Shown piece after piece: positions 13,467-41,916 of a stretch of DNA of 59,183 bases. The stretch is from Alphaproteobacteria bacterium (lineage in GTDB: Bacteria > Pseudomonadota > Alphaproteobacteria > Rhizobiales > Xanthobacteraceae). The translations under genes were made by a program, and so were the position numbers. Below the pieces are notes generated by a model. The model was given only the letters and a program-made list of their open reading frames with translations. It did no database searches and was not told the DNA's origin. The stretch is from contig VGEP01000029.1 of NCBI GenBank assembly GCA_016869215.1, forward strand, positions 1 through 59,183, in the 5' to 3' direction. Positions within the stretch are counted from its first letter, which is position 1; each line of letters starts with the position of its first letter.

Positions 13467-13472
13467 TTTCGC

Positions 13473-13949
13473 GTGAGCGAGCTTCATTTCATCGTCAACG
13501 GCAAGTCCGTTCGCGTCGAGACCGACGGCAGCAAGCCGCTGCTGTCGGTCTTGCGCGACGATTTAAATCTGCGCGGTACGCATTTCGGCTGCGGCACCGA
13601 GCAGTGCGGCGCCTGCATGGTGCTGATCGACGGCAAGCCTGCGCATTCGTGCTCGCGCGAGGCGCAGACCGTGGCGGGCCATAGCATCACGACCGTCGAG
13701 GGCCTGTCGCAGAACGGCGCGCTGAGCCCGCTGCAGCAGGCGTTCCTGGACGAGCAAGCCGGCCAGTGCGGTTATTGCCTGTCAGGCATCCTCATCTCGG
13801 CCTCGGCGCTGCTCGCCGCGAATCCTGCGCCGACGCGTGCCGAAGTGATCGCGGCTCTCGATCCCCATCTCTGCCGCTGCGGCATCCACAACCGCGTGAT
13901 CCGCGCGGTGCAGAAGGCCGGCGCGGCGATGGCGGGAGCGCCGCGATGA
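13473..13949 (+). CDS. (2Fe-2S) subunit of a molybdenum hydroxylase (IorA-like)
   Basis: A 158-residue two-cluster ferredoxin-like subunit, GTG start. The N-terminal plant-type cluster ligands are Cys40, Cys45, Cys48 and Cys60 (GCGTEQCGACMV...HSC). The second, helical cluster uses Cys99, Cys102, Cys134 and Cys136 (GQCGYCLSG...LCRCG). This is the small subunit pattern of xanthine oxidase-family hydroxylases such as isoquinoline 1-oxidoreductase and nicotinate dehydrogenase. It passes electrons from the molybdenum site. It overlaps the large-subunit start by four bases (ATGA). No FAD-subunit gene is present, as in the IorAB type, where electrons go to a cytochrome or other acceptor. Confidence 0.93.
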   Translation: MSELHFIVNGKSVRVETDGSKPLLSVLRDDLNLRGTHFGCGTEQCGACMVLIDGKPAHSCSREAQTVAGHSITTVEGLSQNGALSPLQQAFLDEQAGQCGYCLSGILISASALLAANPAPTRAEVIAALDPHLCRCGIHNRVIRAVQKAGAAMAGAPR

Positions 13950-16069: not shown

Positions 16070-16093
16070 CACAAGAAACTAGGGGAGAATGGA

Positions 16094-17059
16094 ATGCCGC
16101 TCACAAATCGACGAGCCGCGCTCGCAATGGCGCTGGCCGCGCTGGCGCTGCCCGCGCAGGCGCAGCAGCTTCAGCAGAACAAGCCGATCCGGTTCATCGT
16201 CGCGCTGTCGCCCGGCGGCGGAACCGACGTCACCGCGCGGCTTGTGGCGCAAAAGATGAGCGTCAGCATGGGAATGAACGTGCTGGTCGAGAACAAGACC
16301 GGCGGCAATTTCATCCCGGCCGGCCGCGAAGTGCTCAACGCCCCGCCCGACGGCCACACGCTCTATTTCATCTCGACCAGCTCGCTGATCACCCAGACGA
16401 TCCACTCCGATTATCCGTTCGACATCACCAAGTTCACGCCGGTCACGGAGGCCGCCACCGGACCGCTGATCCTGGTCGTGCGCAACGATCTCGGCGTGAA
16501 GACGATCAAGGACTTGCTCGACCGCATGAAGAAGGAGCCGGACAAGATCAAGTTCGGTATGGGCGGCGGCTCCGGAAGTTCGCTTGGCATGGCGACGGAA
16601 TTGCTGAAGGCGCGCACCGGCGTCAAGATCACGACGGTGCCTTATCGCGGCGCGGCGGAGGCGCTGAACAACCTGCTCGGCGGCCACATCGACGCGATGT
16701 TCGACGCCATGCCGGTGATGGCGGTGCAGGCGAAGGAAGGCAAGGTCACGCCGATCGCGGTCACCGGCGACAAGCGCTCGTTCCTGCTGCCGAACGTTCC
16801 GACCATGAAGGAAGCCGGTTTGGATTTCCTGATCAACGGCTGGTACGGCGTGCTCGCGCCGCCGAACACCCCGGCTCCCATCGCGCAGAAGCTGCGCGAC
16901 GAGATCGCCAAGGCCGTCGCCGACAAATCCGCGGTCGACGCACTCGCCAAGCAGGGCATGGAGCCGCGCGGCACCCAGCCCGGCGAATGGGCGAAGTACA
17001 TGAACTCCGAGAAGGCGTTCTACGCCAAGGTCGTCAAGGACGCCGGCCTCGGCAAGTAG
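16094..17059 (+). CDS. Bug/TctC-type substrate-binding protein
   Basis: A 321-residue periplasmic binding protein with AGGGGAGA before the ATG. The leader MPLTNRRAALAMALAALALPAQAQQ fits a signal peptide, and KPIRFIVALSPGGGTDVTARLVAQKM is the Bug signature. Later family segments include PDGHTLYFISTSSL, 'KFGMGGGSGSS' and the C-terminal EWAKYMNSEKAFYAKVVKDAGL. It directly follows the molybdenum hydroxylase large subunit by 24 bases, so it is probably co-transcribed. It is the second of four Bug proteins in this block, suggesting several related carboxylate ligands. A palindrome follows its stop codon. Confidence 0.92.
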   Translation: MPLTNRRAALAMALAALALPAQAQQLQQNKPIRFIVALSPGGGTDVTARLVAQKMSVSMGMNVLVENKTGGNFIPAGREVLNAPPDGHTLYFISTSSLITQTIHSDYPFDITKFTPVTEAATGPLILVVRNDLGVKTIKDLLDRMKKEPDKIKFGMGGGSGSSLGMATELLKARTGVKITTVPYRGAAEALNNLLGGHIDAMFDAMPVMAVQAKEGKVTPIAVTGDKRSFLLPNVPTMKEAGLDFLINGWYGVLAPPNTPAPIAQKLRDEIAKAVADKSAVDALAKQGMEPRGTQPGEWAKYMNSEKAFYAKVVKDAGLGK

Positions 17060-28524: not shown

Positions 28525-29502
28525 ATGATCGACGCCGCCGTGATCGGGCTCGGCCGCTGGGGCAAGTCCCTCATCGCCGCCGTTCAGGGCAAGAGCGACA
28601 AGCTGCGCTTCGTGCACGGCGTCAGCAAGGAGCCGGACACAGTGTGCGATTTCGCCGCCCAGAACGGCTTCCGCCTGTCCACCGACCTTTCCGACGTGCT
28701 GTCCGATCCGCAGGTGCAGGCCGTGTTTCTCGCAACGCCCCATTCGCTGCATGTGTCACAGGTCAAGGCCGTCGCAGCCAAGGGCCTGCCGGTGTGGTGC
28801 GAGAAGCCCCTCTCGCTGACGCGCGCGGGCGCGCAACGCGCGGTGGACGCCTGCCGCAAGGCCGGCGTCGTGCTCGGCTCCGGCAACAACAAGCGCTGCT
28901 TCGCCTCGATGCGCGAGTTGAAGCGAATCGTCGACGAGGGCGCACTTGGCGACATCCTGCACATCGAGGGACATTTCTCCAACGAGCACTCGACCCGCGT
29001 GGTGGGCGGCGGCTGGCGCGACGACCCGAGCGAGTCGCCCGGTGGCGGGCTGACCGGCGCGGGCCTGCACGTGCTCGACGCGCTGGTCAATCTCGGCGGG
29101 CCGATCAAGTCGGTCGATGCCAAGCTGTTCGAGCGCAAGCCCCCGCCCGACCCGCGGGATGTGCTGGCGGTTTTGGTTGAGTTCGCGACCGGCGCGACCG
29201 GCATGCTCGCGACGGTGCGCGCCGCGCCCGCCTTCTGGCGCATCCACGTGTTCGGCACCGAGGGAATGGCCGAGGCGCGCGACGAGGACACGCTGATCCT
29301 AGGCCGCATCGGCGACACGCCGAAGGTCCACACCTATGAGCACGTGGATTCGTTGAAAGTTCTGGCCGAGGCCTTCGCCGACGCCGTCGCCGGCCGCGCG
29401 CCGTTTCCGGTCGCGACCTCGCAGATGCTGGATATGATCGCCGCTTTCGAAGCCATCGTTGCATCCCTGCAAACCCGCGCGCCCGTGCGCATCGACGGAT
29501 GA
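28525..29502 (+). CDS. Gfo/Idh/MocA family oxidoreductase
   Basis: A 325-residue NAD(P)-dependent oxidoreductase. I choose the ATG at 28525 because the Rossmann strand MIDAAVIGLGRWGKSLIAA begins there; the longer frame from 28444 adds a Cys/Pro-rich tail. LPVWCEKPLSL is the EKP motif that contributes the catalytic Lys. A C-terminal beta-sheet substrate domain follows (GGGLTGAGLHVLDALVNLGG). These enzymes act on sugars, cyclitols or related polyols. The hydroxyacid oxidase starts seven bases after the stop codon, so the two are probably co-transcribed. Confidence 0.9.
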   Translation: MIDAAVIGLGRWGKSLIAAVQGKSDKLRFVHGVSKEPDTVCDFAAQNGFRLSTDLSDVLSDPQVQAVFLATPHSLHVSQVKAVAAKGLPVWCEKPLSLTRAGAQRAVDACRKAGVVLGSGNNKRCFASMRELKRIVDEGALGDILHIEGHFSNEHSTRVVGGGWRDDPSESPGGGLTGAGLHVLDALVNLGGPIKSVDAKLFERKPPPDPRDVLAVLVEFATGATGMLATVRAAPAFWRIHVFGTEGMAEARDEDTLILGRIGDTPKVHTYEHVDSLKVLAEAFADAVAGRAPFPVATSQMLDMIAAFEAIVASLQTRAPVRIDG

Positions 29503-29509
29503 CCCCGCC

Positions 29510-30637
29510 ATGAACGACGCATCCAACGTCAACTCGCCGCTTTCCATGGACGAAGTGCGCGAGCGATTTCAGAATTTGCATGAACTGGTCGCGGCCGCCC
29601 GCGCCAGGCTCAACCGCAACGTCTGGGACTATCTGATCGGCGGCGCGGAAACCGAGACCTCGGTGCGGCGCAACCGGCTCGGACTGGACTCGCTCGCGTT
29701 CCGCCCGCGGATCATGCGCGACGTCAACACCACCGACACCGCGGGCTCCTTCCTCGGCCGCAAGCTCAAGATGCCGATCGCGCTGGCGCCGATCGGCAGC
29801 ATCGAGCGATTCGATCCGGCGGCGAGCGCCGCGGTCGCAAACGCCGCGGGCTCTTTCGGCTGCGCCATGTTCCAGAGCTCGGTGTCCACGCCCGACCTGG
29901 AAGTAACCGCAAAAGAGGTGCCGGAAGGGCCGAAGGTGTTCCAGCTTTATGTCCGCGGCGACCATGCCTGGGTCGAGGCGATATTCGACCGCGCCGTGGC
30001 CGCGGGCTTCGGCGGGCTGTGCCTCACGGTGGACACACACCATTACAGCCGGCGCGAGCGCGACATTTCAAAGCGCTACGCCGCCGCCTCGGCGCGAACG
30101 GCCGACGGAGCGCGCTATCAGAAGGGTCTCGACTGGAAGCAATTCGACAAGCTGCGCAAGCGCTACAAGCTGCCGATGATCGTCAAAGGCATCGCTACCG
30201 GCGAGGACGCGCGGCTCGCGGTCGAGCACGGCGTCGACGTGGTGTATGTGTCGAACCACGGCGGCCGCCAGCTCGATCACGGCCTCGGCACCATCGACGT
30301 GCTGCCGGAAGTGGTCGCCGCCGTCGGCAAGAAGGCCGAGATCATTATCGACGGCAGCTTCTGCCGCGGCACCGACGTGCTGAAGGCGATCGCGCTCGGC
30401 GCCGACACCGTCTGCGTGGGGCGTCTCTATGCCTTAGGCATGGCCGCCGCGGGCAGGAACGGCATCTACCGCGTGCTGGAATTGCTGCACGACGAGATGG
30501 TGCGCGACATGGGCCTGCTGGGCGTGAATCGTCTCGCCGAGCTCGACCCGAGCTACGTGCGGCCCGCCCAGCCGGTGCGGTCGCCGCATGTGCTGAGCGC
30601 GTTCCCCTACATCGAAGCGCCCGACGACCGGTATTGA
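29510..30637 (+). CDS. FMN-dependent alpha-hydroxy acid oxidase/dehydrogenase
   Basis: A 375-residue protein of the glycolate oxidase/L-lactate dehydrogenase (LldD) family; start at the ATG at 29510. VWDYLIGGAETETSVRRNR and LAFRPRIMRDV are the N-terminal hallmarks. LPMIVKGIATGEDARLAVEHGVDVVYVSNHGGRQLDHG includes the FMN-contacting Lys and the catalytic His-Gly-Gly-Arg segment, followed by IIIDGSFCRGTDVLKAIALGADTVCVGR. It oxidises an L-2-hydroxyacid to the 2-oxoacid. Electron acceptor (oxygen, quinone) is unknown. It follows a sugar/polyol-type dehydrogenase, so the pair may process a polyol-derived hydroxyacid. Confidence 0.9.
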   Translation: MNDASNVNSPLSMDEVRERFQNLHELVAAARARLNRNVWDYLIGGAETETSVRRNRLGLDSLAFRPRIMRDVNTTDTAGSFLGRKLKMPIALAPIGSIERFDPAASAAVANAAGSFGCAMFQSSVSTPDLEVTAKEVPEGPKVFQLYVRGDHAWVEAIFDRAVAAGFGGLCLTVDTHHYSRRERDISKRYAAASARTADGARYQKGLDWKQFDKLRKRYKLPMIVKGIATGEDARLAVEHGVDVVYVSNHGGRQLDHGLGTIDVLPEVVAAVGKKAEIIIDGSFCRGTDVLKAIALGADTVCVGRLYALGMAAAGRNGIYRVLELLHDEMVRDMGLLGVNRLAELDPSYVRPAQPVRSPHVLSAFPYIEAPDDRY

Positions 30638-30726: not shown

Positions 30727-30745
30727 AATTATGAAATAATTTTCG
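30727..30745. promoter_or_regulatory. Candidate IclR-type operator upstream of the IclR gene
   Basis: ATGAAATAATTTTCG at 30731-30745 matches the core AAATNATTT and part of the flanks of the E. coli IclR operator consensus. It overlaps a perfect AATTAT-GAA-ATAATT inverted repeat at 30727-30741. It is the AT-richest spot in a GC-rich spacer and lies about 60-80 bases before the IclR start codon, fitting autoregulation. Confidence 0.5.
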
Positions 30746-30804
30746 CAATCCGAAAGTAATGCCAGCCACAACCGGCGGCGTCCAGGGAGTGGAGTTCGGC
30801 GCGC

Positions 30805-31704
30805 ATGGATCGGGGATCCGTCGAAGAGTTGCCGCGCAGCCGCAAGCGTAGCGAGACCGCCGACGCGCCGTCCGCGCGGCGCTCTGCCAAGCGCGATGCC
30901 GCACCCGCCGGCGAAGATTCCCGCAATCTCGTCAATTCCCTGTCCAAGGGCCTGCGTGTGCTCGAAGCCTTCACCGCCGAGCGCAGCGAACTGACGCTCA
31001 GCGAGGTGGCGCGCGCCGCACGCATCGATCCCGGCACCGCCTTCCGCATGCTCAAGACGCTGGTGCTGCTCGGCTACGTGGCGCGCGTTCCGGACAGCCG
31101 GCGCTTCCGTTTGACGCTCAAGGTCGTCGACCTCGGCCTGCACGCGATCGGCCGCGCCGACCTGCGCGAACTGGCGCGCCCGATCCTGCGCTCGCTGGTC
31201 GGCGAGGTCAGCGAGGCTGCAAGCTTCGGCGTGCTCGACGGCGCGGACCTGCTATATGTCGAGCGCGTGCGCGCGGGCCTCATCCGTCTTGGCGTCGACA
31301 TCCGCATCGGCACCCACATTCCCGCAGTGTCCGGCGTCATCGGTCACGCCATCCTGGCGTTCCTGCCACCCGCCGAGCGGGACCGCATCATTGCGATGCC
31401 GAGCCGGCCCGGCGACATGACTGCGAAGCCGATCAGCACGCCCGCGCTGCTGCGCACGCTCGAAGCGGTGCGCAAGCGCGGCTATGCACTGCAGGATTCC
31501 ATGTTCGGCAACGGCCTTCGCATCCTCGCAGCTCCTGTGCTTGACCCCGACGGCTGCCCGGTTGCGGCCATCAGCGTCGCGGCGCCCGCGGTGCGCATTT
31601 CGCTCGACGAGTTCCGCGCCCGTGCGCTCGGGCCGGTGCAGGCCGCCGCCGCCGACATTGCGCGCGCAGTGCAGGCGAGCGGTACGGTCACTACCGCGGT
31701 TTGA
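30805..31704 (+). CDS. IclR family transcriptional regulator
   Basis: A 299-residue regulator; AGGGAGTGGAG precedes the ATG. After a disordered Arg/Ala-rich stretch of about 45 residues comes the winged helix LVNSLSKGLRVLEAFTAERSELTLSEVARAARIDPGTAFRMLKTLVLLGYVARVPDSRRFRL, then the GAF-like effector domain (VLDGADLLYVERVRAG; ISTPALLRTLEAVRKRGYALQDSMFGNGLRILAAPVLD). IclR proteins sense small carboxylates. It sits directly upstream of, and co-directional with, the TAXI-TRAP/DUF1445/HyuAB genes and is the likely regulator of that unit. An AT-rich palindrome precedes it. Confidence 0.93.
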   Translation: MDRGSVEELPRSRKRSETADAPSARRSAKRDAAPAGEDSRNLVNSLSKGLRVLEAFTAERSELTLSEVARAARIDPGTAFRMLKTLVLLGYVARVPDSRRFRLTLKVVDLGLHAIGRADLRELARPILRSLVGEVSEAASFGVLDGADLLYVERVRAGLIRLGVDIRIGTHIPAVSGVIGHAILAFLPPAERDRIIAMPSRPGDMTAKPISTPALLRTLEAVRKRGYALQDSMFGNGLRILAAPVLDPDGCPVAAISVAAPAVRISLDEFRARALGPVQAAAADIARAVQASGTVTTAV

Positions 31705-31767
31705 CGAAGGCCATCGCGCATCGCGGACATCCGCTTCACGAACGTCCAAGTTCAAAGGGAGGAAACG

Positions 31768-32763
31768 ATGAGAAACATCTCAAAATTCGCCTTGATCGGA
31801 ACGGCGGTCGCCGGCATCGGCGCGGCGGCAAGCGCGCTCGCCTCCGAGCCGTTGCGGATCGGTGCCATGCCGGTCGGCTCGGGCTGGTACGTCGCGGCAT
31901 CGACGCTTGAGAAGACGCTGCGGCCCGTGGTCGGCGACCGCAAGCTCGAAGTCATCCCGCGCGGCGGCGGCGTCGCCAACCCGGTGGTGGTCGATACCGG
32001 CCGCGCCGAAATCGCGCTGTCGAACGTGCAGACCGCGCAGCTCGCCGTGGCGGGCGACGCCCTCTACAACGGCAAGAAGGCCGAAAACATCCGCGCCCTG
32101 GTCGGCGGGCTGAACCCGGTGTTCCTAGGCGCCATGGTACGCAACGACTTCGTCCAGCGCACCGGGCTCGACACCTTCGACAAGATCATGGCATCGGGCA
32201 AGGCGGTGCGCATTCTGATGAAGCCGCAGGGCTCCAACGTGCCGCCCGCCGTCGATGCGATTCTGGCGGCCTACGGCCTCGACCGCGCCAAGATCAAGGC
32301 CAACGGCGGCGACATCATCCAGGTCGACGTGGCGCAGACGCCCGCGATCATGCGCGACGGCCGCGCCGACATCCTGATCGACACCGTGCTGCGCGGCCAT
32401 CCGATGATCACGGAAGTGGCGCTGACCGCCGACGTTCGGTTCATGGACCTGTCGCCGAAGGCGCTCGACGCGCTCGCCAAGGTCGGCGTGAAACCTGCTT
32501 CGATTCCGGAGTGGTTCAAGGGCCAGAGCGGGCCGACCAAGAGCGGCGACTTCGGCACCGTGCTGATCGCGCACAGGAACCTGCCGGAGAACCTTGCGTA
32601 TCAGATCACCAAGGTCGTGATCGAACAAATGCCGGAAATGGCCAAGAACTACCCAGCCTGGTCGAGCTTCAAGGCCGAGGAAGCCGGCAAGCGCGAGAAC
32701 ACCGGCATAGCGCTGCATCCGGGCGCCGCGCGCTACTACAAGGAGCGCGGGTTCTCGATGTGA
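31768..32763 (+). CDS. TAXI family TRAP transporter solute-binding protein
   Basis: A 331-residue periplasmic binding protein with GGGAGGAAAC before the ATG. The signal peptide MRNISKFALIGTAVAGIGAAASALA precedes EPLRIGAMPVGSGWYVAASTLEKTLRPV, the TAXI (TRAP-associated extracytoplasmic immunogenic) N-terminal motif. ALSNVQTAQLAVAGDALYNGKK and KPQGSNVPPAVDAILAAYGL follow the family. Characterised TAXI proteins bind glutamate/glutamine or dicarboxylates. The matching fused membrane subunit is the next gene, so this is a complete transporter, unlike the orphan binding proteins elsewhere in the window. Confidence 0.93.
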   Translation: MRNISKFALIGTAVAGIGAAASALASEPLRIGAMPVGSGWYVAASTLEKTLRPVVGDRKLEVIPRGGGVANPVVVDTGRAEIALSNVQTAQLAVAGDALYNGKKAENIRALVGGLNPVFLGAMVRNDFVQRTGLDTFDKIMASGKAVRILMKPQGSNVPPAVDAILAAYGLDRAKIKANGGDIIQVDVAQTPAIMRDGRADILIDTVLRGHPMITEVALTADVRFMDLSPKALDALAKVGVKPASIPEWFKGQSGPTKSGDFGTVLIAHRNLPENLAYQITKVVIEQMPEMAKNYPAWSSFKAEEAGKRENTGIALHPGAARYYKERGFSM

Positions 32764-32811
32764 GGCGGCGCCAACTTTGATCGTCTGGCATAGCCAGCGG
32801 CACGGCGTGCT

Positions 32812-32834
32812 CCCCTCCCCCTTGCGGGGAGGGG
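32812..32834 (+). repeat. C/G-run hairpin between TAXI and TRAP permease genes
   Basis: CCCCTCCCC (32812-32820), loop CTTGC, GGGGAGGGG (32826-32834): perfect 9-bp stem. It is similar in words to the element at 1811-1879 and to a dispersed repeat class in related genomes. It lies inside a probable operon and may limit read-through so that the binding protein is made in excess over the permease. Confidence 0.6.
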
Positions 32835-32876
32835 CGACCCGAATTCGCAGCCACTCCCTCCCCCGCCAAGCCTCTC

Positions 32877-34805
32877 ATGACCGCAGCGCTGAAAAAACTC
32901 GCTGACATACGGCTGTGGGTCGCGGTCGTCCTCGTCGTCTTCCAATACTGGATTCTCCTGCATCCACAGCAGCCGCTGTTCGAGCGGCCCGTGCATCTGC
33001 TGCTCGCGCTGTTCCTCGTCTACCTGTGGTTCCCGGTCAAAAGCGGGCGCATGCCGCGCGCGGCGAGGCTCGCGCTGGATGTCGCCGGCGTTGCCGCGGT
33101 CGCGGCGCTTGCCGTCTACCTGTGGATCGCAGTGCCGCGGTTCATGACCCGCATCGACAACGTCGACCCGGTGTTCTGGTGGGACGTCGTATTCGGCGCG
33201 GTGCTGGTGGTGCTGCTGATCGAAGCTGTGCGGCGCACGGTCGGCTGGATCCTGGTCTGGGTGATCGCAGGATTCCTGCTCTACGGCGCGCTCGGGTACC
33301 TCATCCCCGCGCCTGCCGGCTTCCGCGGCTTCGGCGTCGAGGAGTACACCGAAATCCTCACCATGACGACGAGCGGCATCCTCGGCGTCACGACCGAAAC
33401 CTCGGTCAACTTCGTGTTCTATTTCGTCGCGTTCGGCGCGGCCTATTCGGCCATCGGCGGCGCACAGCTATTCATCGACCTCGCCGTGCGTCTCGTTGGC
33501 CGCAGCCGCGGCGGCGGCGCCAAGATTGCCATCGTCGGGTCGAGTCTGATGGGAACGATCTCCGGCAGCGCAGTCGCCAACGTCACCGCGACCGGCGTGT
33601 TCTCGATACCGCTGATGCGGCGCTCCGGCATGTCGGCGCACAATGCCGCGGCGACCGAGGCCATCGCCTCCACCGGCGGCCAGCTCATGCCGCCGGTGAT
33701 GGGGATCGCGGCCTTCGTCATGGCCGAACTGCTGAGCGTTCCCTATGCCCAGATCGCGCTCGCGGGCCTGATCCCGGCGATGGCGTTCTACATCGCGCTC
33801 TACTTCAACGCCGATCTTTACGCGCGCAAAACCGGCATCGGCACGCTAGACAAGGACGCCATCGGGGAATTGCCGCCGCTGCTGCCGCGGCTACATCTGC
33901 TGGTCCCCCCGCTGGTCCTGGTCGCGGGCCTTTGCCTGAACTTCTCCGCGCAGATGGCCGCGACCTACGCCACGCTGTCCTGCTTCCCGCTCGCCTTCAT
34001 CCGGCGCGAGAACTGGCTAACCTTCGACAAGACCGTGAAGATGATCAACGACCTCGGCAAGCAGATGGCCGAGATCGCAATCCCGATCGCGGCGATCGGC
34101 ATCATCATAGCGGTCGCGATCCAGTCCAACATCGCGCTGAAGTTCGCCGCAGGCGTGATCGCTGCGAGCGGCGGCGCGCTTGGAATTTCGCTCATTCTGG
34201 TCATCGTCGGCTGCATCGTCATGGGCATGGGCCTGCCCACCGTCGCGGCCTACATCATCGGTGCGGTGCTGTACGTTCCGGCGCTGAAGGAGCTGGGAGT
34301 GGCGCCGCTCGCCGCGCATTTCTTCGTCATGTACTACTGCGTGCTGTCGATGGTGACGCCGCCGGTCGCGCTCGCCTCCTACGCCGCCGCAGGCCTCGCC
34401 GGCGCGGGGCCGATGACGACGAGCCTCGCGGCGTTCCGCATGAGCTTCGTCTGCTTCCTGGTGCCGTTCGCCTTCGTGGTCGACCCGGCGCTGCTGTTCC
34501 AGGCGGACCTCATTCAGGTGCTGATCGCGAGCGCCGGCCTATTCCTGTCGACATCGGTGTGGGCGATCGGGCTGATCGGCTACTTTCGCCGGCCGCTGGT
34601 CTGGTGCGACCGCATCCTCTTGATGGCCTGCGGCGTCATCGCCATCGTTGCGCCCACCGGCGCGATGCTGTGGGACATCGGCGTCGGGGTCGCGGCCGTG
34701 TTCCTGTTGCTGAACTGGTTCTTTCCGCGTTTCAGCTTCGCGACGCTGACGCCAGACGGATGGAACGGCAAGGGCGCGGCGGCGCCGGATACGGGGCAAC
34801 GCTAG
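32877..34805 (+). CDS. TRAP transporter fused permease subunit (4TM + 12TM)
   Basis: A 642-residue integral membrane protein. The N-terminal part has several hydrophobic helices corresponding to the small DctQ domain (LWVAVVLVVFQYWILL; LLLALFLVYLWF), fused to the large DctM-like domain. TETSVNFVFYFVAFGAAYSAIGG, IVGSSLMGTISGSAVANVTATGVFSIPLM and ASTGGQLMPPVMGIAAFVMAE are hallmarks of the fused TAXI-associated TRAP permease. It carries out sodium- or proton-driven uptake of the ligand captured by the preceding binding protein. It overlaps the next gene by one base (TAGTG). Confidence 0.93.
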   Translation: MTAALKKLADIRLWVAVVLVVFQYWILLHPQQPLFERPVHLLLALFLVYLWFPVKSGRMPRAARLALDVAGVAAVAALAVYLWIAVPRFMTRIDNVDPVFWWDVVFGAVLVVLLIEAVRRTVGWILVWVIAGFLLYGALGYLIPAPAGFRGFGVEEYTEILTMTTSGILGVTTETSVNFVFYFVAFGAAYSAIGGAQLFIDLAVRLVGRSRGGGAKIAIVGSSLMGTISGSAVANVTATGVFSIPLMRRSGMSAHNAAATEAIASTGGQLMPPVMGIAAFVMAELLSVPYAQIALAGLIPAMAFYIALYFNADLYARKTGIGTLDKDAIGELPPLLPRLHLLVPPLVLVAGLCLNFSAQMAATYATLSCFPLAFIRRENWLTFDKTVKMINDLGKQMAEIAIPIAAIGIIIAVAIQSNIALKFAAGVIAASGGALGISLILVIVGCIVMGMGLPTVAAYIIGAVLYVPALKELGVAPLAAHFFVMYYCVLSMVTPPVALASYAAAGLAGAGPMTTSLAAFRMSFVCFLVPFAFVVDPALLFQADLIQVLIASAGLFLSTSVWAIGLIGYFRRPLVWCDRILLMACGVIAIVAPTGAMLWDIGVGVAAVFLLLNWFFPRFSFATLTPDGWNGKGAAAPDTGQR

Positions 34806-35899
34806 TGTCGAAGGGTCAAGTCCATCTGCGCGAGGATCGCATTGCAACCGACGAGCGTTCGGGCCGACGGATCCGGCAGGTCACGAGCCATCCATCGATT
34901 CATCATCATCCGTTCTTTTTCGTGCCGGCCTACGACCGCGCGATGAAGAAGCTGATCTTCGTATCGTACCGGACCGGAAGCCCGCAGATTTTCTTCGAGG
35001 ATCGCGCCAGCGGCAATCTGGTGCAGGCGACCAACCGGCCCGACCTCGCCGACTGGTCGATCTCGCCGTCGCCCGACGGCCGCTACGTCTATTTCACCGC
35101 CGGTACCGGCGCGTTTCGCGTCGACCTCGACACGTTCGCTGAGGAACAACTCGCCGACTTCGGCGCGGTCGAGATGCGCGAGAAGGGCATGGTCGGCGCG
35201 GCCATGGGCACCACCGCGCTGTCGGCCAGCGGTCGCTGGTGGGCCGTGCCGGTCAAAGCCGGGTCGGTGTCGCGGTTCGTGCTGATCGACACCGAGAAAA
35301 AGACTTCCAGCGTATTCCTGGAGCGCGACACCATCGGCCATCCGCAGTTCTGCCCCGACGACGAGGACCTGATCCTCTACGCCGGCCCCCTCACCGACCG
35401 GGTCTGGCTCACCGACCGCAGCGGCAAGAACAACCGAAGGCTCTACGAGCGCGAGGACAAGATGCAGTGGGTCACCCACGAGGTCTGGGTGCCGGGCCGC
35501 CGCTGCGTCGCCTTCGTCGACTGGCCGCGCGGCATGCGCATGATCGACATCGACCGCGGCGTAATCTACTGGGTCACGCGCTTTCCGGCGTGGCACGCCT
35601 CGCCCGACTCCGTCGGGCGTCATTTCGTCTGCGACACCAATTTCCCCGACCGCGGGCTGCACACCATCGATATCGACGACGACGACGACGTGACTCCGCT
35701 CTGCCTTAGCGAAGCCACCAACGAGGGCGCGCACTGGGGCGCGCCGTTTCCCTACAACGACGGCCCCGTCGGCGTCGAAGCCCGCCAGCACACCCATCCG
35801 CATCCGCGCTATTCGCCGGACAATACGCGCGTGCTGTTCACATCCGACAAGTCCGGACACGCACAGCTTTACGAAGTGCTGCTGGAGAACGGCCGATGA
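34805..35899 (+). CDS. Oligogalacturonate lyase-like/TolB-like beta-propeller protein
   Basis: A 364-residue protein. It starts at the GTG at 34805, coupled to the permease stop (TAGTG); the open frame extends far upstream only as a shadow of the permease gene. It contains repeated propeller blades (SISPSPDGRYVYFTAGTG; DNTRVLFTSDKSGHAQLYEVLLENG) and a run of His (SHPSIHHHPFFFVPAYD) plus QHTHPHPRYSPDN. The His-rich loops and the blade pattern resemble oligogalacturonate lyases, whose metal site uses His residues. There is no signal peptide, so it is cytoplasmic. Oligogalacturonide cleavage is unlikely in this neighbourhood; a related lyase or isomerase acting on the imported acid is my inference. 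It overlaps the DUF1445 gene by four bases. Confidence 0.78.
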   Translation: MSKGQVHLREDRIATDERSGRRIRQVTSHPSIHHHPFFFVPAYDRAMKKLIFVSYRTGSPQIFFEDRASGNLVQATNRPDLADWSISPSPDGRYVYFTAGTGAFRVDLDTFAEEQLADFGAVEMREKGMVGAAMGTTALSASGRWWAVPVKAGSVSRFVLIDTEKKTSSVFLERDTIGHPQFCPDDEDLILYAGPLTDRVWLTDRSGKNNRRLYEREDKMQWVTHEVWVPGRRCVAFVDWPRGMRMIDIDRGVIYWVTRFPAWHASPDSVGRHFVCDTNFPDRGLHTIDIDDDDDVTPLCLSEATNEGAHWGAPFPYNDGPVGVEARQHTHPHPRYSPDNTRVLFTSDKSGHAQLYEVLLENGR

Positions 35900-36672
35900 A
35901 CGCAAACGGCATGCTGGAAAGTCAGCGCGTACGCGCCGAAATCCGCGCCGGGCGCATCACCGGCACAAGCCGGGGGCTCGCGCACGGCTTCGTGCAGTGC
36001 AATCTCGCGATCCTGCCGAAGGCATACGCCTTTGACCTCCTGCTCTACTGCCAGCGCAACCAGCGCGCCTGCCCGGTTCTGGAAGTCACCGATCCCGGCA
36101 GTCCGGTGCCGAAGAAGCTCGCGCCCACCGGCGACCTGCGCACCGACTGCGCCCGTTATGCGATCTACCGCGACGGCGTGCGCGTCGAGGACCGCACCGA
36201 CATTACCGATCTCTGGCGCGACGACCTCATGACCTTCCTGATCGGCTCCGGCATCTCGATCGACGGCGCGCTGGAGGCCGCCGGCGTGCCGACCCACAAG
36301 GACCGCTGGGTGCTGCGCACCACGATCCCGACCGAGCCCGCAGGCCTCTTCAGCGGCGACATGATCGTAACGATGCGCTGGCTCTCGCCGCAGCAGGCCA
36401 TTGCGGCAACGCAGATCACGTCGCGCTTCCCGTTCAATCACGGCGCACCGATTCACATCGGCGATCCGGCGTTGATCGGCGCGGACCTGAAAGCCCCGCT
36501 GTTCGGCCCGCCGGTGCCGCCGACGCCCGAGGGCATCGTGCCGGTGTTCTGGGCCTGCGGCGTGACCCCGCAGAGCGCGGTCGAGAACGCTAAGCTGCCG
36601 TTCTTCATCGCGCATGCGCCAGCGCACAGCTTCATCTCCGATATGCCGTCCAGCGCGCTGATGAACCCCTGA
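35896..36672 (+). CDS. DUF1445 (YcsI/D-glutamate cyclase-type) putative hydro-lyase
   Basis: A 258-residue protein, normal full length for the family, with an ATGA overlap with the upstream gene. Recognisable family segments are RAEIRAGRITGTSRGLAHGFVQCNLAILPKAYAFDLLLYCQRN, CPVLEVTDPG, DLRTDCARYAIYRDG, FLIGSGISIDGAL, VTMRWLSPQQAIAATQITSRFPFNHGAPIHIGDP and PVFWACGVTPQSAV. In mammals a protein with this domain is a D-glutamate cyclase giving 5-oxo-D-proline. In Bacillus the homologue ycsI is in the 5-oxoprolinase operon. Here it is next to oxoprolinase-type HyuAB, which supports a role with D-glutamate or 5-oxoproline. Confidence 0.88.
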   Translation: MNANGMLESQRVRAEIRAGRITGTSRGLAHGFVQCNLAILPKAYAFDLLLYCQRNQRACPVLEVTDPGSPVPKKLAPTGDLRTDCARYAIYRDGVRVEDRTDITDLWRDDLMTFLIGSGISIDGALEAAGVPTHKDRWVLRTTIPTEPAGLFSGDMIVTMRWLSPQQAIAATQITSRFPFNHGAPIHIGDPALIGADLKAPLFGPPVPPTPEGIVPVFWACGVTPQSAVENAKLPFFIAHAPAHSFISDMPSSALMNP

Positions 36673-36686
36673 AGGAACCTTTCGCA

Positions 36687-38768
36687 GTGAACGCCCCCGT
36701 GCGCAGCACCTCCCCGATCCGCCTGTCCGCCGACGTCGGCGGCACGTTCACGGACGTCGCGGCGTTCGACGAGGCGACGGGCGAGCTGAAGCTCGGAAAG
36801 ACGCTGACCACGCCGGAGCGGCTGGTGAGCGGCATCGAGAACGGCGTCGGCAAGGCAGGCTCGGCGTTCAAGGCCGCTCGGCTCTTCCTTCATGGCACCA
36901 CGGTCGCGATCAACACCATCCTGGAGCGCACCGGCGCGCGCTGCGCGCTGCTCACCACCACCGGCTTCCGCGACATCTACGAAATCGGTCGCGTCAATCG
37001 GCCAGAGTCCTACAACCTGTTCTTCAAAAAGCACGCGCCGCTGATCGACCGCGACCTGCGGTTCGAGATCATGGAGCGGACCGACGCCCAGGGCACGGTC
37101 CTGATCCAGCTCGACGAAGAGCAGGTCCGAAAGGCCGCGGCCGAGGCGGTGGCACAGGGCGCGGAAGCCATCGCGATCCTGTTCCTGCACTCCTACCGCA
37201 ACCCGACGCACGAGCGCCGCGCCAAGGAGATCGTCGAGCGCGAATTCCCGCAGCTCTTCGTCACCGCCTCGCACGAGCTGTCGCAGGAGTATCGCGAATA
37301 CGAACGCACCTCGACCGCGGCCGCCAACGCTTATGTCGGCCCGCGGGTGCGGACCTATCTCACCGAGATGGAACAGCACCTCAGCGGCGCCGGCTTCAAC
37401 GGCAGCTTTCTGATCGTGCAGTCGACCGGCGGTCTGTTCGACGTCGGCGATGCGCGGAGCTCGTGCATCCGCATGCTGGAGTCGGGACCGGCCGCAGGCG
37501 TGGTCGGCGCCAAAGCGCTGTGCGATTCCATCGGAATAAAGAACGCCATCGCCTTCGACATGGGTGGCACCACCGCCAAGGCCGGCGTGATCGAGAACGG
37601 CGAGGTGCTGATGACCGGCTCGGCGCTGATCGGCGGCTACGCCACCGGCCTTCCCGTGCAGATGCCAATGATCGACATCCAGGAGGTCGGCACCGGCGGC
37701 GGCTCGATCGCGCGTATCGAGACTGGCAACGCGCTGCGAGTCGGCCCCGAGAGCGCGGGCGCGGTGCCCGGCCCGGTCTGTTACGGACTCGGCGGAACCG
37801 AGCCGACGGTGACCGACGCCAATCTGGTGCTCGGCCGGCTCAGCGCAGACCGCTTCCTCGGCGGCGAGATGACGCTCGACCTCGCCGCTGCCCGCAAGGC
37901 GTTAGCCGAGCGTGTCGCGACCCCGCTCGGCCTCGGCGCGATCGAGGCCGCGGAAGGCATTCTGCGCATCGCCACCACCAAGATGGCTCATGTCGTACGC
38001 TGGGTGACCACCGAGCGTGGGCTCGACGCGGCGAACTTCGCGCTGATCGCTTACGGCGGCGCGGGACCGCTGCATGCCGCGATGGTGGCGCGCGACCTTG
38101 GCATCGCCAAGGTCGTGATCCCGCGCGCGCCGGGGCATTTCTCGGCCTTCGGCATGCTGGTCGCTGACCTGCGCTGCGACCACGTCAACACCTGGTTTAC
38201 GCCGCTCGCCGAAGCTTCGTTCGAGGCGATGGAGCGGCTCTACCGCGGCATGGAAGCGCGCGGCCGCGACACCGTCACGCGCGACGGCGGCGTCGGTGGC
38301 ACGATCGCGACACGCGCGGCCGACATGCGCTACGTCGGCCAGGAGCACGCGGTCACCGTCGACCTGCCGGTCGAGCTGTTCGAGAAGCAGGACCGCGACG
38401 GCATCAAGAAGCGCTTCGACGCCGTTCATGACGTGCGCTATGGGTTCTCGGTGCCCAACGAAAAGGCCGAGATCGTCAGCCTGCGCAGCGGGGTCGTCGG
38501 CCAGATGCGCAAGCCGCCGTTCGAGCGGATCGCGGCGGGCGCGGCGGAGCCCGATTCCCCCGCCTTCCGCGGCAAACGGCCGGTCTATTTCGCGGGCACG
38601 GGCTTTACCGAGACGCCGACCTATCACCGGCCGGCGCTGAGGGCCGGCAACGTCATCGCGGGCCCGGCGCTGATCGAGGAGCACGCCTCCACGACGGTTG
38701 TGCTGCCCAGCGACACGCTGACGGTCGACGACTTTGGCGACCTCGTGATCGAGATCGGAAGGAACTGA
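36687..38768 (+). CDS. hyuA: Hydantoinase/oxoprolinase family protein, A subunit
   Basis: A 693-residue ATP-dependent hydrolase subunit of usual length; GTG start after GAAGGAA. SADVGGTFTDVAAFD is the N-terminal phosphate-binding motif, and FDMGGTTAKAGVIENGEV is the second acidic nucleotide-binding motif. HGTTVAINTILERTGARCALLTTTGFRDIYEIGR is the substrate-domain hallmark. With the B subunit it hydrolyses cyclic amides such as 5-oxoproline or N-methylhydantoin at the cost of ATP; some relatives are acetone or acetophenone carboxylases, but no gamma subunit is present. It lies 14 bases after the DUF1445 gene and two bases before hyuB. Confidence 0.93.
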   Translation: MNAPVRSTSPIRLSADVGGTFTDVAAFDEATGELKLGKTLTTPERLVSGIENGVGKAGSAFKAARLFLHGTTVAINTILERTGARCALLTTTGFRDIYEIGRVNRPESYNLFFKKHAPLIDRDLRFEIMERTDAQGTVLIQLDEEQVRKAAAEAVAQGAEAIAILFLHSYRNPTHERRAKEIVEREFPQLFVTASHELSQEYREYERTSTAAANAYVGPRVRTYLTEMEQHLSGAGFNGSFLIVQSTGGLFDVGDARSSCIRMLESGPAAGVVGAKALCDSIGIKNAIAFDMGGTTAKAGVIENGEVLMTGSALIGGYATGLPVQMPMIDIQEVGTGGGSIARIETGNALRVGPESAGAVPGPVCYGLGGTEPTVTDANLVLGRLSADRFLGGEMTLDLAAARKALAERVATPLGLGAIEAAEGILRIATTKMAHVVRWVTTERGLDAANFALIAYGGAGPLHAAMVARDLGIAKVVIPRAPGHFSAFGMLVADLRCDHVNTWFTPLAEASFEAMERLYRGMEARGRDTVTRDGGVGGTIATRAADMRYVGQEHAVTVDLPVELFEKQDRDGIKKRFDAVHDVRYGFSVPNEKAEIVSLRSGVVGQMRKPPFERIAAGAAEPDSPAFRGKRPVYFAGTGFTETPTYHRPALRAGNVIAGPALIEEHASTTVVLPSDTLTVDDFGDLVIEIGRN

Positions 38769-38770
38769 TC

Positions 38771-40684
38771 ATGGACGCCGTTACGGGAAAACGTCCGGCA
38801 TCCTCCGCCAGTCACGACCCGGTCGTGACCGAAATCGTGCGCAACGGTCTCGTGGCCGTGACCGAGGAGATGAAGATCAACCTCATGCGCACGGCCTACA
38901 ACATGATCATCTACGAGGCGCTCGACTTCACCGTCGGCCTGTTCGACGCGCGCGGCGACACGGTGTCGATCGGTTTGGGCCTGCCGATGTTCATCCGCGG
39001 CATGAGCGACACGGTGAAAGCCAAGATCGACCAGGTCGGCCCGCAGAACATGGAGCCGGGCGACATCCTGCTGACCAACGACGCCTACACGACCGGCTCG
39101 CACCTCAACCACATGACCTTCACGGTGCCGATCTTCCACGACGGAGAGTTGGTGGCTTACTCCTGCTGCATGGCGCATTGGCCGGACGTCGGCGGCACGC
39201 TGACGGAGGGCACGACCGACATCTATTCCGAAGGCTTGCAGATGCCGATCGTGAAAATCTACCGCAAGGGCGTGCCGAACGAGGAGCTAATCTCGATCAT
39301 CAAGACCAACGTGCGCATCCCCGAGCGCGCCATGGGCGACTTCCGCGCCCAGATCGCGGCTGTTAAGACCGGCGAGCGGCGGTTCATCGAAATGATCCGC
39401 AAGTACGGCCGCGACGCGGTGCTCGGCGGAATCGAAGCGATCATGGACCAGAGTGAGGCCGTAGCGCGCGCGCGCGTGCGAGAGATGCCCGACGGCGTCT
39501 ACGAGGCCGAGTCGTTCATGGACGACGACGGCATCAACCAGGGCCAGCGCGTGCCGATCAAGGTGCGCGTAACGGTGAAAGGCGACCGCATGACGGTCGA
39601 CCTCTCCGACGTGTCGCCGCAGGTGCAGGGCTTTTACAATTCCGGCCAGACCGCCGGACGGTCCTGCTGCCAGGTGGCGTTCAAGTGCCTGACCACCGCG
39701 CTCGACCTTCCGATCAACGACGGCACGTTCCGCGCCCTCGACATCGTGCTGCCGATGGGCCGCGTGGTCAGCGCGGAGAAGCCGGCCGCGATGCGCATGT
39801 GGATGACCTATCCCATGACCATCGTCGACACGATCTTCAAGGCGCTCGCGCCGGCCCTGCCCGACCAGGTGATCGCGGGTCATCACGCCGACCTCTGCGT
39901 CGGCCGCATCAACGGCCGCCGGCCAAAGGACAACAGCTTCTATATTTACCTCGGCGGCTTGATCGGCGGTGGTTGGGGCGCCAAGCACGACAGCGACGGT
40001 ATGAACGCCACCATCGCCATGAACGACGGCGACACCCACAACGGGCCGTCGGAACAGGTCGAGGCGAAGTATCCGCTGCTGGTGGAGCGTTACTGCCTGC
40101 GCCCGGACTCCGGCGGCGCGGGCCGATTCCGCGGCGGACTCGGCACCGAGCAGGTGGTGCAGGCGCGGCATCCGATCCGCTTCTCATCGCTGATGGAGCG
40201 CGTACGCTGCAAGCCCTGGGGCCTGTTCGGCGGGTTGTCGGGTTTCGGCAATGGCGTGGCGCTGCACCGCTTCGGCAAGGACGAAGAGGCACGGTTTCCC
40301 AGCGGCAAGGCGCTCAATCAGACCCTGCAGGCGGGCGACGCCTACATTCTGCGCTCCGGCGGCGGCGGCGGCTACGGCTCGCCGCTGGAACGCGACATCG
40401 CGGCGCTGCAGCGCGACGTGCGCTGCGGCTATGTGTCGAGGGAATCGGCCGAGAAGCACTATGGCGCCGTGTTCAGGGGCGACACGCTCGACCTCGACGT
40501 GACCGCAACGCAGGCGCGCCGCACGCAGATGCGCGAGCAGGGCCTGCCGCACGACGAGCCGATTTCGGATATCATCATCCCGTTCCCCGCGGCGCCGCAG
40601 GCGCCGGAGCGCAACCCTGAGCTCGAGAAGCTGACCGAGGAGGAGCGCACGGCGTTTGCGATGACCTGCCGGTGCTGCTCTTGA
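38771..40684 (+). CDS. hyuB: Hydantoinase B/oxoprolinase family protein, B subunit
   Basis: A 637-residue partner subunit. DPVVTEIVRNGLVAVTEEMKINLMRTAYNMIIYEALDFTVGLFDARG, GDILLTNDAYTTGSHLNHMTF (with the metal-site-like Asn-Asp and His) and YNSGQTAGRSCCQVAFKCL are typical. The Gly-rich FRGGLGTEQV and LRSGGGGGYGSPLERD segments lie near the C-terminus. It forms the catalytic complex with HyuA. The C-terminus ends in CRCCS, which may bind metal. The gene is tightly linked to hyuA (two bases apart) and is followed by the carboxypeptidase gene 14 bases on. Confidence 0.93.
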   Translation: MDAVTGKRPASSASHDPVVTEIVRNGLVAVTEEMKINLMRTAYNMIIYEALDFTVGLFDARGDTVSIGLGLPMFIRGMSDTVKAKIDQVGPQNMEPGDILLTNDAYTTGSHLNHMTFTVPIFHDGELVAYSCCMAHWPDVGGTLTEGTTDIYSEGLQMPIVKIYRKGVPNEELISIIKTNVRIPERAMGDFRAQIAAVKTGERRFIEMIRKYGRDAVLGGIEAIMDQSEAVARARVREMPDGVYEAESFMDDDGINQGQRVPIKVRVTVKGDRMTVDLSDVSPQVQGFYNSGQTAGRSCCQVAFKCLTTALDLPINDGTFRALDIVLPMGRVVSAEKPAAMRMWMTYPMTIVDTIFKALAPALPDQVIAGHHADLCVGRINGRRPKDNSFYIYLGGLIGGGWGAKHDSDGMNATIAMNDGDTHNGPSEQVEAKYPLLVERYCLRPDSGGAGRFRGGLGTEQVVQARHPIRFSSLMERVRCKPWGLFGGLSGFGNGVALHRFGKDEEARFPSGKALNQTLQAGDAYILRSGGGGGYGSPLERDIAALQRDVRCGYVSRESAEKHYGAVFRGDTLDLDVTATQARRTQMREQGLPHDEPISDIIIPFPAAPQAPERNPELEKLTEEERTAFAMTCRCCS

Positions 40685-40698
40685 GGCTTGCGACGCTC

Positions 40699-41916
40699 AT
40701 GCGCCTACGCCTTGATTCACCACTTGCAGCCTTGTGGCCTTGCCTGCTCTTCGTGGCCGTCGTCCTACCCTCGCCCGGTCAGGCCCAGACCGATGCCAAG
40801 GAGCGAGTCGCAGCGCTCGCTCCGGCGGCACAGGTGCTCGTGATGGATGCCGCGGGAACCGAACTCGTGGCCCAGAACGCCGACGCACCTTTCGTCCCGG
40901 CCTCGGTTGCAAAGATCGCGACGGCGTGGATGGCGATGGAGGTCCTGGGCCGGGATCACCGCTTCCAGACCGGCTTCTATCTGGACAGTAAGCGGATGCT
41001 GTACGTGCGCGGTGGCGGCGATCCTTTCCTGATTTCGGAAGAGCTGGCTTTGCTCGCGCCGCAACTGGTCGCCGCAATCGGCAAGCAGCCGCTGACCGGC
41101 ATGGTGCTCGACGCGAGCTACTACCCGGCCAAGCTGAGCATTCCCGGTATTGAGGACAGCAACAGATCATACGATGCTTTGAACTCGGCGCTCGCGGTGA
41201 ACTTCAACACCATCAGTGCCGTACGCAAAGGCAAGACAGTCCGCCAGGGAGAGAAGCAGACTCCAATCACCCCGCTTGCGGCCAGCCAGTTCCGGGAGCG
41301 GGGGCCGAACGGGCGCGGCCGTATCAGCCTCGCCCAAGAGCCCGCGCTGAGTCTGCGCTATGCCGGCGAATTGCTCGCCGCGTTCATCAAGCAGGCCGGC
41401 GGCAGCGTCCGCGGCAAGATTTCGACGGGCACCGTGCCCGCGGGCCTTGCTCCGGTCTACGTTCATCGCCAGTCGCGTCCGCTCTCGGCGATCCTCAGCC
41501 AGTTGCTGCTCGGCTCGAACAACTACGTTGCCAACCAGGTCTTCCTGGAGATCGGCGCGCACCGCCTGGGCGGCCCCGTCAGTCTCGAGAAGTCGCTCCG
41601 GATCACGCGCGAGGTTCTCGCCAAGCACGGCCTCGCCGAAACCATTTACATTGAGGAAGGCTCGGGATTGAGCCACGGCAACCGCTTCACGCCGCGCGGC
41701 CTTGCCCAAATGCTGCACCATTTCACACCCCATGCCGGCCTGCTCGAAAACCGCAAAGGCGCCGCGTTTAAGACCGGCACGCTCGAAGGCGTCCGCACGC
41801 TGGCGGGCTACCTCGACACCTCAAAGCATGGACAAGTGCGCTTCGTGATCTCGCTCAAGAGCAACAATGGCGCGATGCGCTTCCAGTTGTTGCGCGCCAT
41901 CGAGTCCGTGCTGTAG
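40699..41916 (+). CDS. D-alanyl-D-alanine carboxypeptidase/endopeptidase (S13, PBP4-type)
   Basis: A 405-residue penicillin-binding protein from the ATG at 40699; a GTG at 40672 inside hyuB would add nine residues. The leader MRLRLDSPLAALWPCLLFVAVVLPSPGQAQ is a signal peptide. Active-site motifs are SVAK (about 69-72, in VPASVAKIATAW), SNN (LLGSNNYVANQ) and KTG (AAFKTGTLEG). The distance between SxxK and SxN is slightly shorter than in E. coli PBP4, so the inserted domains are compact. It trims D-Ala or cuts peptidoglycan cross-links in the periplasm. Location right behind hyuAB is notable because peptidoglycan is the main source of D-amino acids. Confidence 0.88.
   Translation: MRLRLDSPLAALWPCLLFVAVVLPSPGQAQTDAKERVAALAPAAQVLVMDAAGTELVAQNADAPFVPASVAKIATAWMAMEVLGRDHRFQTGFYLDSKRMLYVRGGGDPFLISEELALLAPQLVAAIGKQPLTGMVLDASYYPAKLSIPGIEDSNRSYDALNSALAVNFNTISAVRKGKTVRQGEKQTPITPLAASQFRERGPNGRGRISLAQEPALSLRYAGELLAAFIKQAGGSVRGKISTGTVPAGLAPVYVHRQSRPLSAILSQLLLGSNNYVANQVFLEIGAHRLGGPVSLEKSLRITREVLAKHGLAETIYIEEGSGLSHGNRFTPRGLAQMLHHFTPHAGLLENRKGAAFKTGTLEGVRTLAGYLDTSKHGQVRFVISLKSNNGAMRFQLLRAIESVL

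Follow-up and report, generated by a model that had tools for sequence, protein, structure and literature searches.

A transporter and a predicted oligogalacturonate-lyase-like β-propeller form the core of a conserved, putatively catabolic module in an alphaproteobacterial genome

The window analysed here is the whole contig VGEP01000029.1 (contig C29; 59,183 nucleotides) from the draft genome (5.15 Mb, 123 contigs) of an alphaproteobacterium of the Xanthobacteraceae (GCA_016869215.1). Positions 30,727 to 41,916 of its forward strand carry a run of genes for an IclR-family regulator, a TAXI-TRAP transporter, a β-propeller protein, a DUF1445 protein and the two subunits of a HyuAB enzyme. This operon is a real, conserved unit with the propeller and the transporter at its centre, and the predicted fold and aligned residues make the propeller a PL22/oligogalacturonate-lyase-like enzyme of a separate subfamily, distant from the classical lyases. 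A previous sequence-only reading had described the locus as a D-glutamate/5-oxoproline salvage system. The catabolic operon, its TAXI-TRAP importer and the conserved linkage of its genes are supported, whereas the D-glutamate/5-oxoproline substrate is not favoured and the operon is probably not a D-glutamate salvage system. We tentatively prefer, with slightly less than even confidence, a module under IclR control for the breakdown of a small, probably non-amino organic acid that would be opened by a PL22-like Mn propeller, with the DUF1445 protein and a remodelled HyuAB acting downstream.

The propeller is a protein of 364 residues, whose GTG start at 34805 lies inside the stop codon of the permease gene; no signal peptide is apparent by eye, a judgement made without a predictor. 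Besides the Pfam family Pectate_lyase22 (PF14583), it matches PF07676, 'WD40-like Beta Propeller Repeat'. Its nearest solved relatives by sequence are the oligogalacturonate lyases 3pe7 (expectation value, E = 3.8e-16) and 3c5m. An AlphaFold2 model, built from 36 sequences (34 of the 64 loci described below and the two copies of the window's genome), has a predicted local distance difference test score (pLDDT) of 87.3. With this model, Foldseek places 3pe7 first among PDB structures (E = 1.3e-25; template modelling scores 0.82/0.80), the top match outside the oligogalacturonate lyases having E = 6.3e-11. R199, H225, H264, Q328, H331 and H333 of the propeller align with R217, H242, H287, Q350, H353 and H355 of 3pe7, and all six are invariant in 36/36 aligned sequences, both copies of the window's genome included. 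In 3pe7, the Yersinia oligogalacturonate lyase, we take H287, Q350, H353 and H355 to be the Mn ligands and R217 and H242 to be the catalytic acid/base. The sequence-only reading had listed the β-propeller and left it unexplained; it is indeed present, as a lyase-like enzyme forming a conserved core with the transporter.

With the PL22 oligogalacturonate lyases (3pe7 and 3c5m, the latter from Vibrio parahaemolyticus), the propeller shares a full-length fold, a PF14583 score above the cut-off and the six residues. However, it is only 19-26% identical to them (24-26% to annotated oligogalacturonate lyases, in 12 Rahnella plasmid matches), belongs to a subfamily of its own, adjoins a small-solute transporter and is encoded in a genome in which KduI was not found. 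The propellers of the 64 loci are at least 51% identical to the window's protein. KduI (PF04962) has no match in the genome, a draft assembly, so no continuation of the classical unsaturated-uronate route is visible. The propeller is rare in the window's order (3/397 genomes, its own included), and a phylum search with the propeller profile gave, besides its own genome, weak matches (29-95 bits) in 13/398 genomes; ten of these are strong PF14583 proteins (at least 549.8 bits). The locus of the match in G654 has proteins that look secreted by eye. Contig C102 (5.4 kb; L008, 1-5393) of the window's own genome bears another TAXI-TRAP-propeller-DUF1445 set, whose propeller is 73% identical to the first; this contig stops just upstream of the TAXI gene, which leaves a regulator or any DHDPS gene beyond view.

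A contig scan with the propeller alignment, taking one genome per species, yielded 64 loci from several phyla; it relied on two peptide patterns and missed relatives without them. Neighbours up to 8.5 kb away from the propeller gene were counted from simple open-reading-frame calls, and families were clustered by script. Between one and three members were tested to name each of the DHDPS, Gfo/Idh, enolase and amidohydrolase families, whereas the LacI and ABC permease/ATPase families carry names given by eye. The most frequent neighbours are DHDPS-family genes (41 loci), fused TRAP permeases (28), TAXI proteins (27), Gfo/Idh-type (23) and LacI-type genes (22), followed by DUF1445 and IclR (19 each), HyuA (16), HyuB and enolase-type genes (15 each) and amidohydrolase-2-type genes (11). 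Several loci are truncated where their contigs end (L028 shortly past DUF1445, L027 shortly past the propeller, L017 and L018 within HyuAB), and in L052 TAXI, TRAP and DUF1445 are each matched in two reading frames. Gene linkage is well above chance, since DUF1445 occurs in 82/297 genomes of the window's order, mostly as a single copy, yet lies near the propeller in 19/64 loci (HyuA in 16/64). The window's set of IclR, TAXI, TRAP, propeller, DUF1445 and HyuA is found in six loci (L013, L014, L021, L026, L073 and L075; L026 is from Pseudolabrys sp. Root1462), and this type of gene set is seen in Alphaproteobacteria such as Pseudolabrys. This recurrence indicates that the DUF1445-HyuAB linkage is real, and our neighbourhood survey, which finds the two together in 13/64 propeller loci, agrees with the conserved linkage anticipated for relatives. 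No paper describing the gene set was found in the open-licence literature searched.

The partners of the core vary. An ABC transporter takes the TAXI-TRAP position in four loci (L015, L023, L024 and L065), and the ABC binding protein tested, encoded in the partial locus L018, is of the NMT1 type. Another eleven loci, most of them titled as Rhodobacterales, combine LacI-type, DHDPS and TAXI-TRAP genes with the propeller and have neither DUF1445 nor HyuAB. Salipiger (L038) is an example of a DHDPS-type module. In Chloroflexota and other phyla the propeller accompanies DHDPS and Gfo/Idh-type genes and, in 15 loci, an enolase-type gene; the tested member of the enolase-type family is galactarate/talarate-dehydratase-like (242 bits, under the model cut-off of 500). 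HyuA and a DHDPS-family gene never share a locus (0/64). Three of the 41 DHDPS-family genes (L022, L025 and L071) lie on the opposite strand and have no relationship to the others; the remaining 38 fall into two groups that share about 30% identity, the L061 member being on the other strand. DHDPS and DUF1445 occur without HyuAB in L016 (Xanthobacteraceae) and L052 (Burkholderiales). Propeller and HyuAB occur without DUF1445 in L012 and L019, and L012 also has no TAXI-TRAP or IclR relative beside its propeller, HyuA and HyuB. The conserved core of the module is the transporter and the propeller.

In L022 and L025, a minus-strand cluster at about 12900-16900, with a flavin adenine dinucleotide (FAD) oxidoreductase (DAO), an SDR and the unrelated DHDPS-family gene, stands beside an IclR-ABC-propeller-amidohydrolase module; it is reminiscent of hydroxyproline breakdown.

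The binding protein of the importer speaks to the ligand. Excerpts of the paper on the TAXI protein VcGluP state that it binds L-glutamate and, weakly, L-pyroglutamate, that its glutamate binding depends on Y45 and Q93 (213- and 990-fold loss on mutation), and that Q93, which differs from one TAXI protein to another, may determine which ligand is bound (PMC11574862). The window's protein belongs to the same family as VcGluP (taken to be 8s4j from its length and residues) and TtGluBP and aligns with them overall, but it differs in both critical glutamate-binding residues, with W40 at Y45 and N86 at Q93, and also has G68 at S75. Because both Y45 and Q93 are replaced, glutamate is an unlikely ligand on this alignment, and the glutamate binder of the sequence-only reading is not borne out. 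W40, Y41 and N86 are invariant in 24 module sequences (22 of the 27 TAXI loci and two more), HyuAB-type and DHDPS-type alike; this shared site suggests one TAXI ligand common to both types of module.

The nearest solved relatives of HyuAB are the N-methylhydantoinase 7hk5, a fused chain (HyuA 428, HyuB 321 bits), and then the caprolactamase 6yra (387 and 262 bits), both ahead of the carboxylases. The PDB chain names of 6yra are 5-oxoprolinase and hydantoinase; the excerpted caprolactamase paper identifies 6YRA as CapAB and gives the phosphate motifs DxGGTxTD and DxGGT for the ATP-dependent lactamase family (PMC8453981). The window's HyuA keeps both motifs, P1 and P2. Its HyuAB scores 512 and 300 bits with the caprolactamase NCBIfam equivalog models, which need 1000; the 512-bit alpha score marks no special likeness, since seven other HyuA proteins score 486-552. 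With the acetophenone carboxylase model it scores 338.7 bits of the 1500 needed. By this low score and its nearer hydantoinase and caprolactamase relatives, HyuAB is not of the acetone/acetophenone carboxylase type, an identity that would have spoken against the earlier reading.

In the HyuA tree the window's protein falls in an 18-row clade (100/100) with other module proteins and its own paralogue on contig C5, while five fused proteins, one of them from contig C4 of the same genome, form a separate group on a branch of 3.03, a length that carries a long-branch warning. We tentatively take these five to be oxoprolinase-type (OPLAH) in view of their fused architecture; 7hk5, a fused N-methylhydantoinase, illustrates that fusion alone is not decisive. 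The available text of the caprolactamase paper attributes a fused architecture to oxoprolinases (PMC8453981). By its place in the tree, the window's HyuAB does not belong with the fused oxoprolinase-type proteins, and its proposed identity as a 5-oxoprolinase-type enzyme is not supported. Lys40 of CapA was not used to argue against an oxoprolinase, since the fused sequences here also have Lys in that column.

The metal site of HyuB is altered. CapB uses Asp41, His99, Asp102 and His124, the last three fully conserved in the set of the excerpted paper (PMC8453981). The window's HyuB has D52, H111, H114 and H136 at these positions, as placed by spacing and by alignment with 7hk5 rather than with CapB itself. 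The Asp102 position is His in 16/16 module HyuB proteins; in 12 others it is Asp in 10, Asn in the genome's own C7 protein and His in its C5 protein, the genome having eight HyuB genes in all. Owing to this Asp-to-His change, the reaction may have changed. Further, 13 of the 16 module HyuB proteins end in a Cys-rich tail, LTxEERxxxAMxxRCC(S/T), more narrowly LTEEERxxFAMxCRCCS, or close to it (40570-40684 in the window); the tail was not found in L020, L027 or the genome's own C5 and C7 HyuB, and L017 stops at a contig end before the Cys motif. Thus the window's enzyme resembles 7hk5 and CapAB as its top solved relatives and in both phosphate motifs, but has His for a metal Asp and an added Cys-rich tail. 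The sister HyuAB on contig C5 (L161, 4027-10533; HyuA 929 bits) is clustered with RidA-family, Ldh_2 and polysaccharide-deacetylase-family genes, which may together serve a pathway for N-heterocycles.

The DUF1445 protein matches PRK05463, 'putative hydro-lyase', at 295.2 bits, under the NCBIfam equivalog cut-off of 324. In an alignment of 13 of the 19 DUF1445 loci and the genome's own three copies, it is 65-76% identical to 14 module relatives and 45% to its own C7 paralogue, identities by which the module proteins form a separate subfamily. A mouse protein of the family is a D-glutamate cyclase converting D-Glu to 5-oxo-D-proline, according to excerpts of the report (PMC5339696).

Wider DUF1445 contexts were viewed on plasmids (239 records matched; four of the 25 listed) and in the window's order. 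In Bacillus badius the gene occurs with IclR, PxpABC-type genes and NRAMP; a PxpA annotation overlaps the DUF1445 match in three Paracoccus plasmids among the matches listed; in Azospirillum it adjoins a gamma-glutamyltransferase; and in Terrarubrum LysR and ABC genes stand directly beside it, with no lactamase. The Acidovorax plasmid pACDW039_1 carries LysR, DUF1445, a DctP-type TRAP system (DctPQM) and a fused HyuAB-family protein. This cluster shares TRAP, DUF1445 and a HyuAB-family enzyme with the window, but its TRAP is DctP-type and not TAXI-type, its fused HyuAB belongs to a different group, and it has no propeller. The kip/pxp operon, as in Bacillus badius, similarly shares IclR, an importer, DUF1445 and an ATP-dependent lactamase with the window, which differs from it by an unrelated lactamase, an extra lyase-like propeller, a divergent DUF1445 subfamily and the lack of any match to PxpA (PF03746) in the genome. 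The analogy with kip/pxp drawn before stands for the wider DUF1445 family. Among 21 DUF1445 contexts of the window's order (the genome's own C7 locus and 20 hand-picked from 88 places, spread over genera), a HyuA relative is present in 4, a DctP-family gene (tested in L090) in 11 and a LysR-family gene (tested in L011) in 14, and none has a propeller or TAXI relative (E up to 1e-8). There DUF1445 recurs with DctP-type TRAP, LysR, a DUF2848 protein and an amidase as a distinct cluster (L082, L090 and others).

Pfam and NCBIfam scans and the junction sequences bear out all eight genes first proposed for the locus, with their coordinates and tight junctions (Table 1). The permease stop and propeller start overlap as TAG/GTG (34803-34807) and the propeller and DUF1445 genes as ATGA (35896-35899); 14 base pairs (bp) separate DUF1445 from HyuA, and 2 bp HyuA from HyuB. 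The top NCBIfam match of the regulator is PcaR/PcaU/PobR (182.5 bits, under the cut-off of 284.75). Promoter and terminator scans of the locus gave chance-level results only.

Table 1. Genes of the operon and the adjoining carboxypeptidase gene in the window.
Gene product	Position	Strand	Family matches
IclR-family regulator	30805-31704	+	PF01614 98.8 bits, PF09339 54.2 bits
TAXI-family TRAP solute-binding protein	31768-32763	+	TIGR02122 115.3 bits, cut-off 84.35
Fused TRAP permease (QM)	32877-34805	+	TIGR02123 509.5 bits, cut-off 320.65
Predicted PL22/oligogalacturonate-lyase-like β-propeller	34805-35899	+	PF14583 60.8 bits, cut-off 30
DUF1445 / D-glutamate-cyclase-family protein, distinct subfamily	35896-36672	+	PF07286 134.7 bits, cut-off 25
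HyuA-type ATPase subunit, ATP-dependent lactamase family	36687-38768	+	PF01968/PF05378/PF19278
HyuB-type subunit	38771-40684	+	PF02538 532.8 bits
PBP4-type D,D-carboxypeptidase	40672-41916	+	PF02113 169.2 bits; TIGR00666 116.6 bits, cut-off 107.8

The last of these genes is an adjoining gene outside the module. Relatives of the PBP4 carboxypeptidase occur in 0/64 propeller loci (E up to 1e-10; some loci stop at contig edges), which rules it out as a component and removes it from the salvage system in which it had been placed; its true start is probably downstream of 40684. Directly upstream of the operon, on the same strand (28525-30637), lie genes for a Gfo/Idh oxidoreductase and a flavin mononucleotide (FMN)-dependent hydroxy-acid dehydrogenase, the latter with no match in the 64 propeller loci.

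Based on the above data, we propose the following course for the module. TAXI-TRAP, or an NMT1-type ABC transporter in some relatives, would import a small acid, probably without an α-amino group and probably sugar-acid-like. A presumably cytosolic propeller, with bound Mn2+ and a histidine base, could then remove a proton beside the carboxylate, leading to β-elimination or a related rearrangement. The product would pass to DUF1445 for a hydro-lyase- or cyclase-type step and to the ATP-dependent lactamase-family HyuAB with its altered metal ligands. Most of the other lineages in the survey lack HyuAB and have a DHDPS-family (pyruvate-type) lyase or hydratase. The sugar-acid context supports this proposal, with the galactarate/talarate-dehydratase-like family in 15/64 loci and the Gfo/Idh family in 23/64.

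Several points weigh against it. We infer the substrate and every reaction, as well as the metal, the cell location and the order of the steps, from context and residues. The identity of the propeller to annotated oligogalacturonate lyases of plasmids is only about 25%, the roles of its six residues are presumed, and with KduI not found in the genome there is no visible unsaturated-uronate continuation. The mutual exclusion of HyuAB and DHDPS is partly phylogenetic, since all HyuAB loci come from records whose titles name Alphaproteobacteria or, in two cases, only Proteobacteria. The wider DUF1445 contexts point to glutamate/oxoproline compounds, and the family member of known activity acts on D-glutamate (excerpts of PMC5339696). 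Lastly, the cyclic-amide or carboxylation chemistry of characterised HyuAB relatives, as given in the excerpted caprolactamase paper, fits a plain sugar acid poorly (PMC8453981). A bolder form of the proposal, which we regard as rather doubtful, is that a PL22-fold Mn enzyme carries out a first step new to its family on the imported acid, and that a HyuAB with a rebuilt metal site replaces the DHDPS-family lyase of other phyla.

It is unlikely that the substrate is instead an N-heterocyclic acid, of the hydroxy-pyrrolidone or hydantoin type or an amide-linked sugar acid. Here the propeller would remove a β-substituent, DUF1445 would close or dehydrate the ring and HyuAB would open it with ATP, the DHDPS alternative acting on a pyrroline-type ring; some DHDPS-family enzymes do act on pyrroline carboxylates. 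The N-methylhydantoinase and caprolactamase nearest to HyuAB point in this direction, together with the cyclic amides on which the family's hydrolases act (excerpts of PMC8453981), the RidA-, polysaccharide-deacetylase- and Ldh_2-family neighbours of the C5 sister HyuAB, and the NMT1-type ABC transporters replacing TAXI-TRAP in some loci. The sugar-acid context in Chloroflexota argues otherwise, and the Asp-to-His change in HyuB suggests that the reaction may have changed.

By analogy, the propeller might also perform a carboxylate rearrangement on imported ascorbate-breakdown or keto-sugar acids, which we judge distinctly unlikely. Stack et al. in 2020 reportedly described a bacterial L-ascorbate pathway in which a 'WD40-like' enzyme acts on 2,3-diketo-L-gulonate. 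The PF07676 match of the propeller fits this name, and its amidohydrolase-2, enolase-superfamily and DHDPS-family neighbours resemble the kinds of enzyme reported for that pathway. A SAR202-clade Chloroflexota strain grows better with ascorbate, according to excerpts of its description (PMC10444878). However, the solved relatives of the amidohydrolase include many named decarboxylases, the top one being an uncharacterised hydrolase; no PdxA- or gluconolactonase-type family is among the 25 of 81 locus families viewed; and DUF1445 and HyuAB go unexplained. A plasmid search with the amidohydrolase matched 368 records, and neither of the two viewed has an annotated propeller.

The salvage system, in which TAXI-TRAP imports D-Glu or 5-oxoproline, DUF1445 interconverts D-Glu and 5-oxo-D-proline and HyuAB opens 5-oxoproline with ATP, now appears quite improbable. 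It retains some weight since a member of the PF07286 family, to which the window's protein belongs, cyclises D-glutamate in the mouse (excerpts of PMC5339696) and other DUF1445 genes lie with PxpABC, a gamma-glutamyltransferase, or a fused HyuAB-family protein and TRAP; the glutamate and weak L-pyroglutamate binding of VcGluP (excerpts of PMC11574862) agrees with it. Against this stand the replaced Y45 and Q93 of the TAXI protein and the separation of HyuAB from the fused oxoprolinase-type proteins, one of which is encoded on C4 in this genome. The module also dissociates, with a DHDPS-family gene in place of DUF1445 and HyuAB in 11 transporter-propeller loci and propeller-HyuAB without DUF1445 in two, and the PBP4 gene is not conserved. 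Moreover, salvage gives the lyase-like propeller no role, and cyclisation of D-Glu followed by hydrolysis of 5-oxo-D-proline would presumably be a futile, ATP-burning cycle unless stereochemistry changes.

An ordinary pectin system, with a true oligogalacturonate lyase and side genes, would suit the Pfam and PDB names of the propeller's matches and its conserved catalytic residue set, but it is very improbable and was set aside in view of the 24-26% identity to annotated plasmid lyases, the failure to find KduI in the genome and the fact that TAXI-TRAP is not known to carry oligosaccharides.

If the small-acid module that we favour is correct, it would provide function leads for a PL22-like subfamily that extends from Alphaproteobacteria to Chloroflexota, for a divergent DUF1445 subfamily and for a HyuAB clade whose metal site has changed. 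It would also caution that the labels 'D-glutamate cyclase' and 'hydantoinase/oxoprolinase' are not to be taken literally. The exchangeable partners, TAXI-TRAP or NMT1-type ABC on the one hand and HyuAB or DHDPS on the other, would supply a built-in test for any substrate proposed for these modules.

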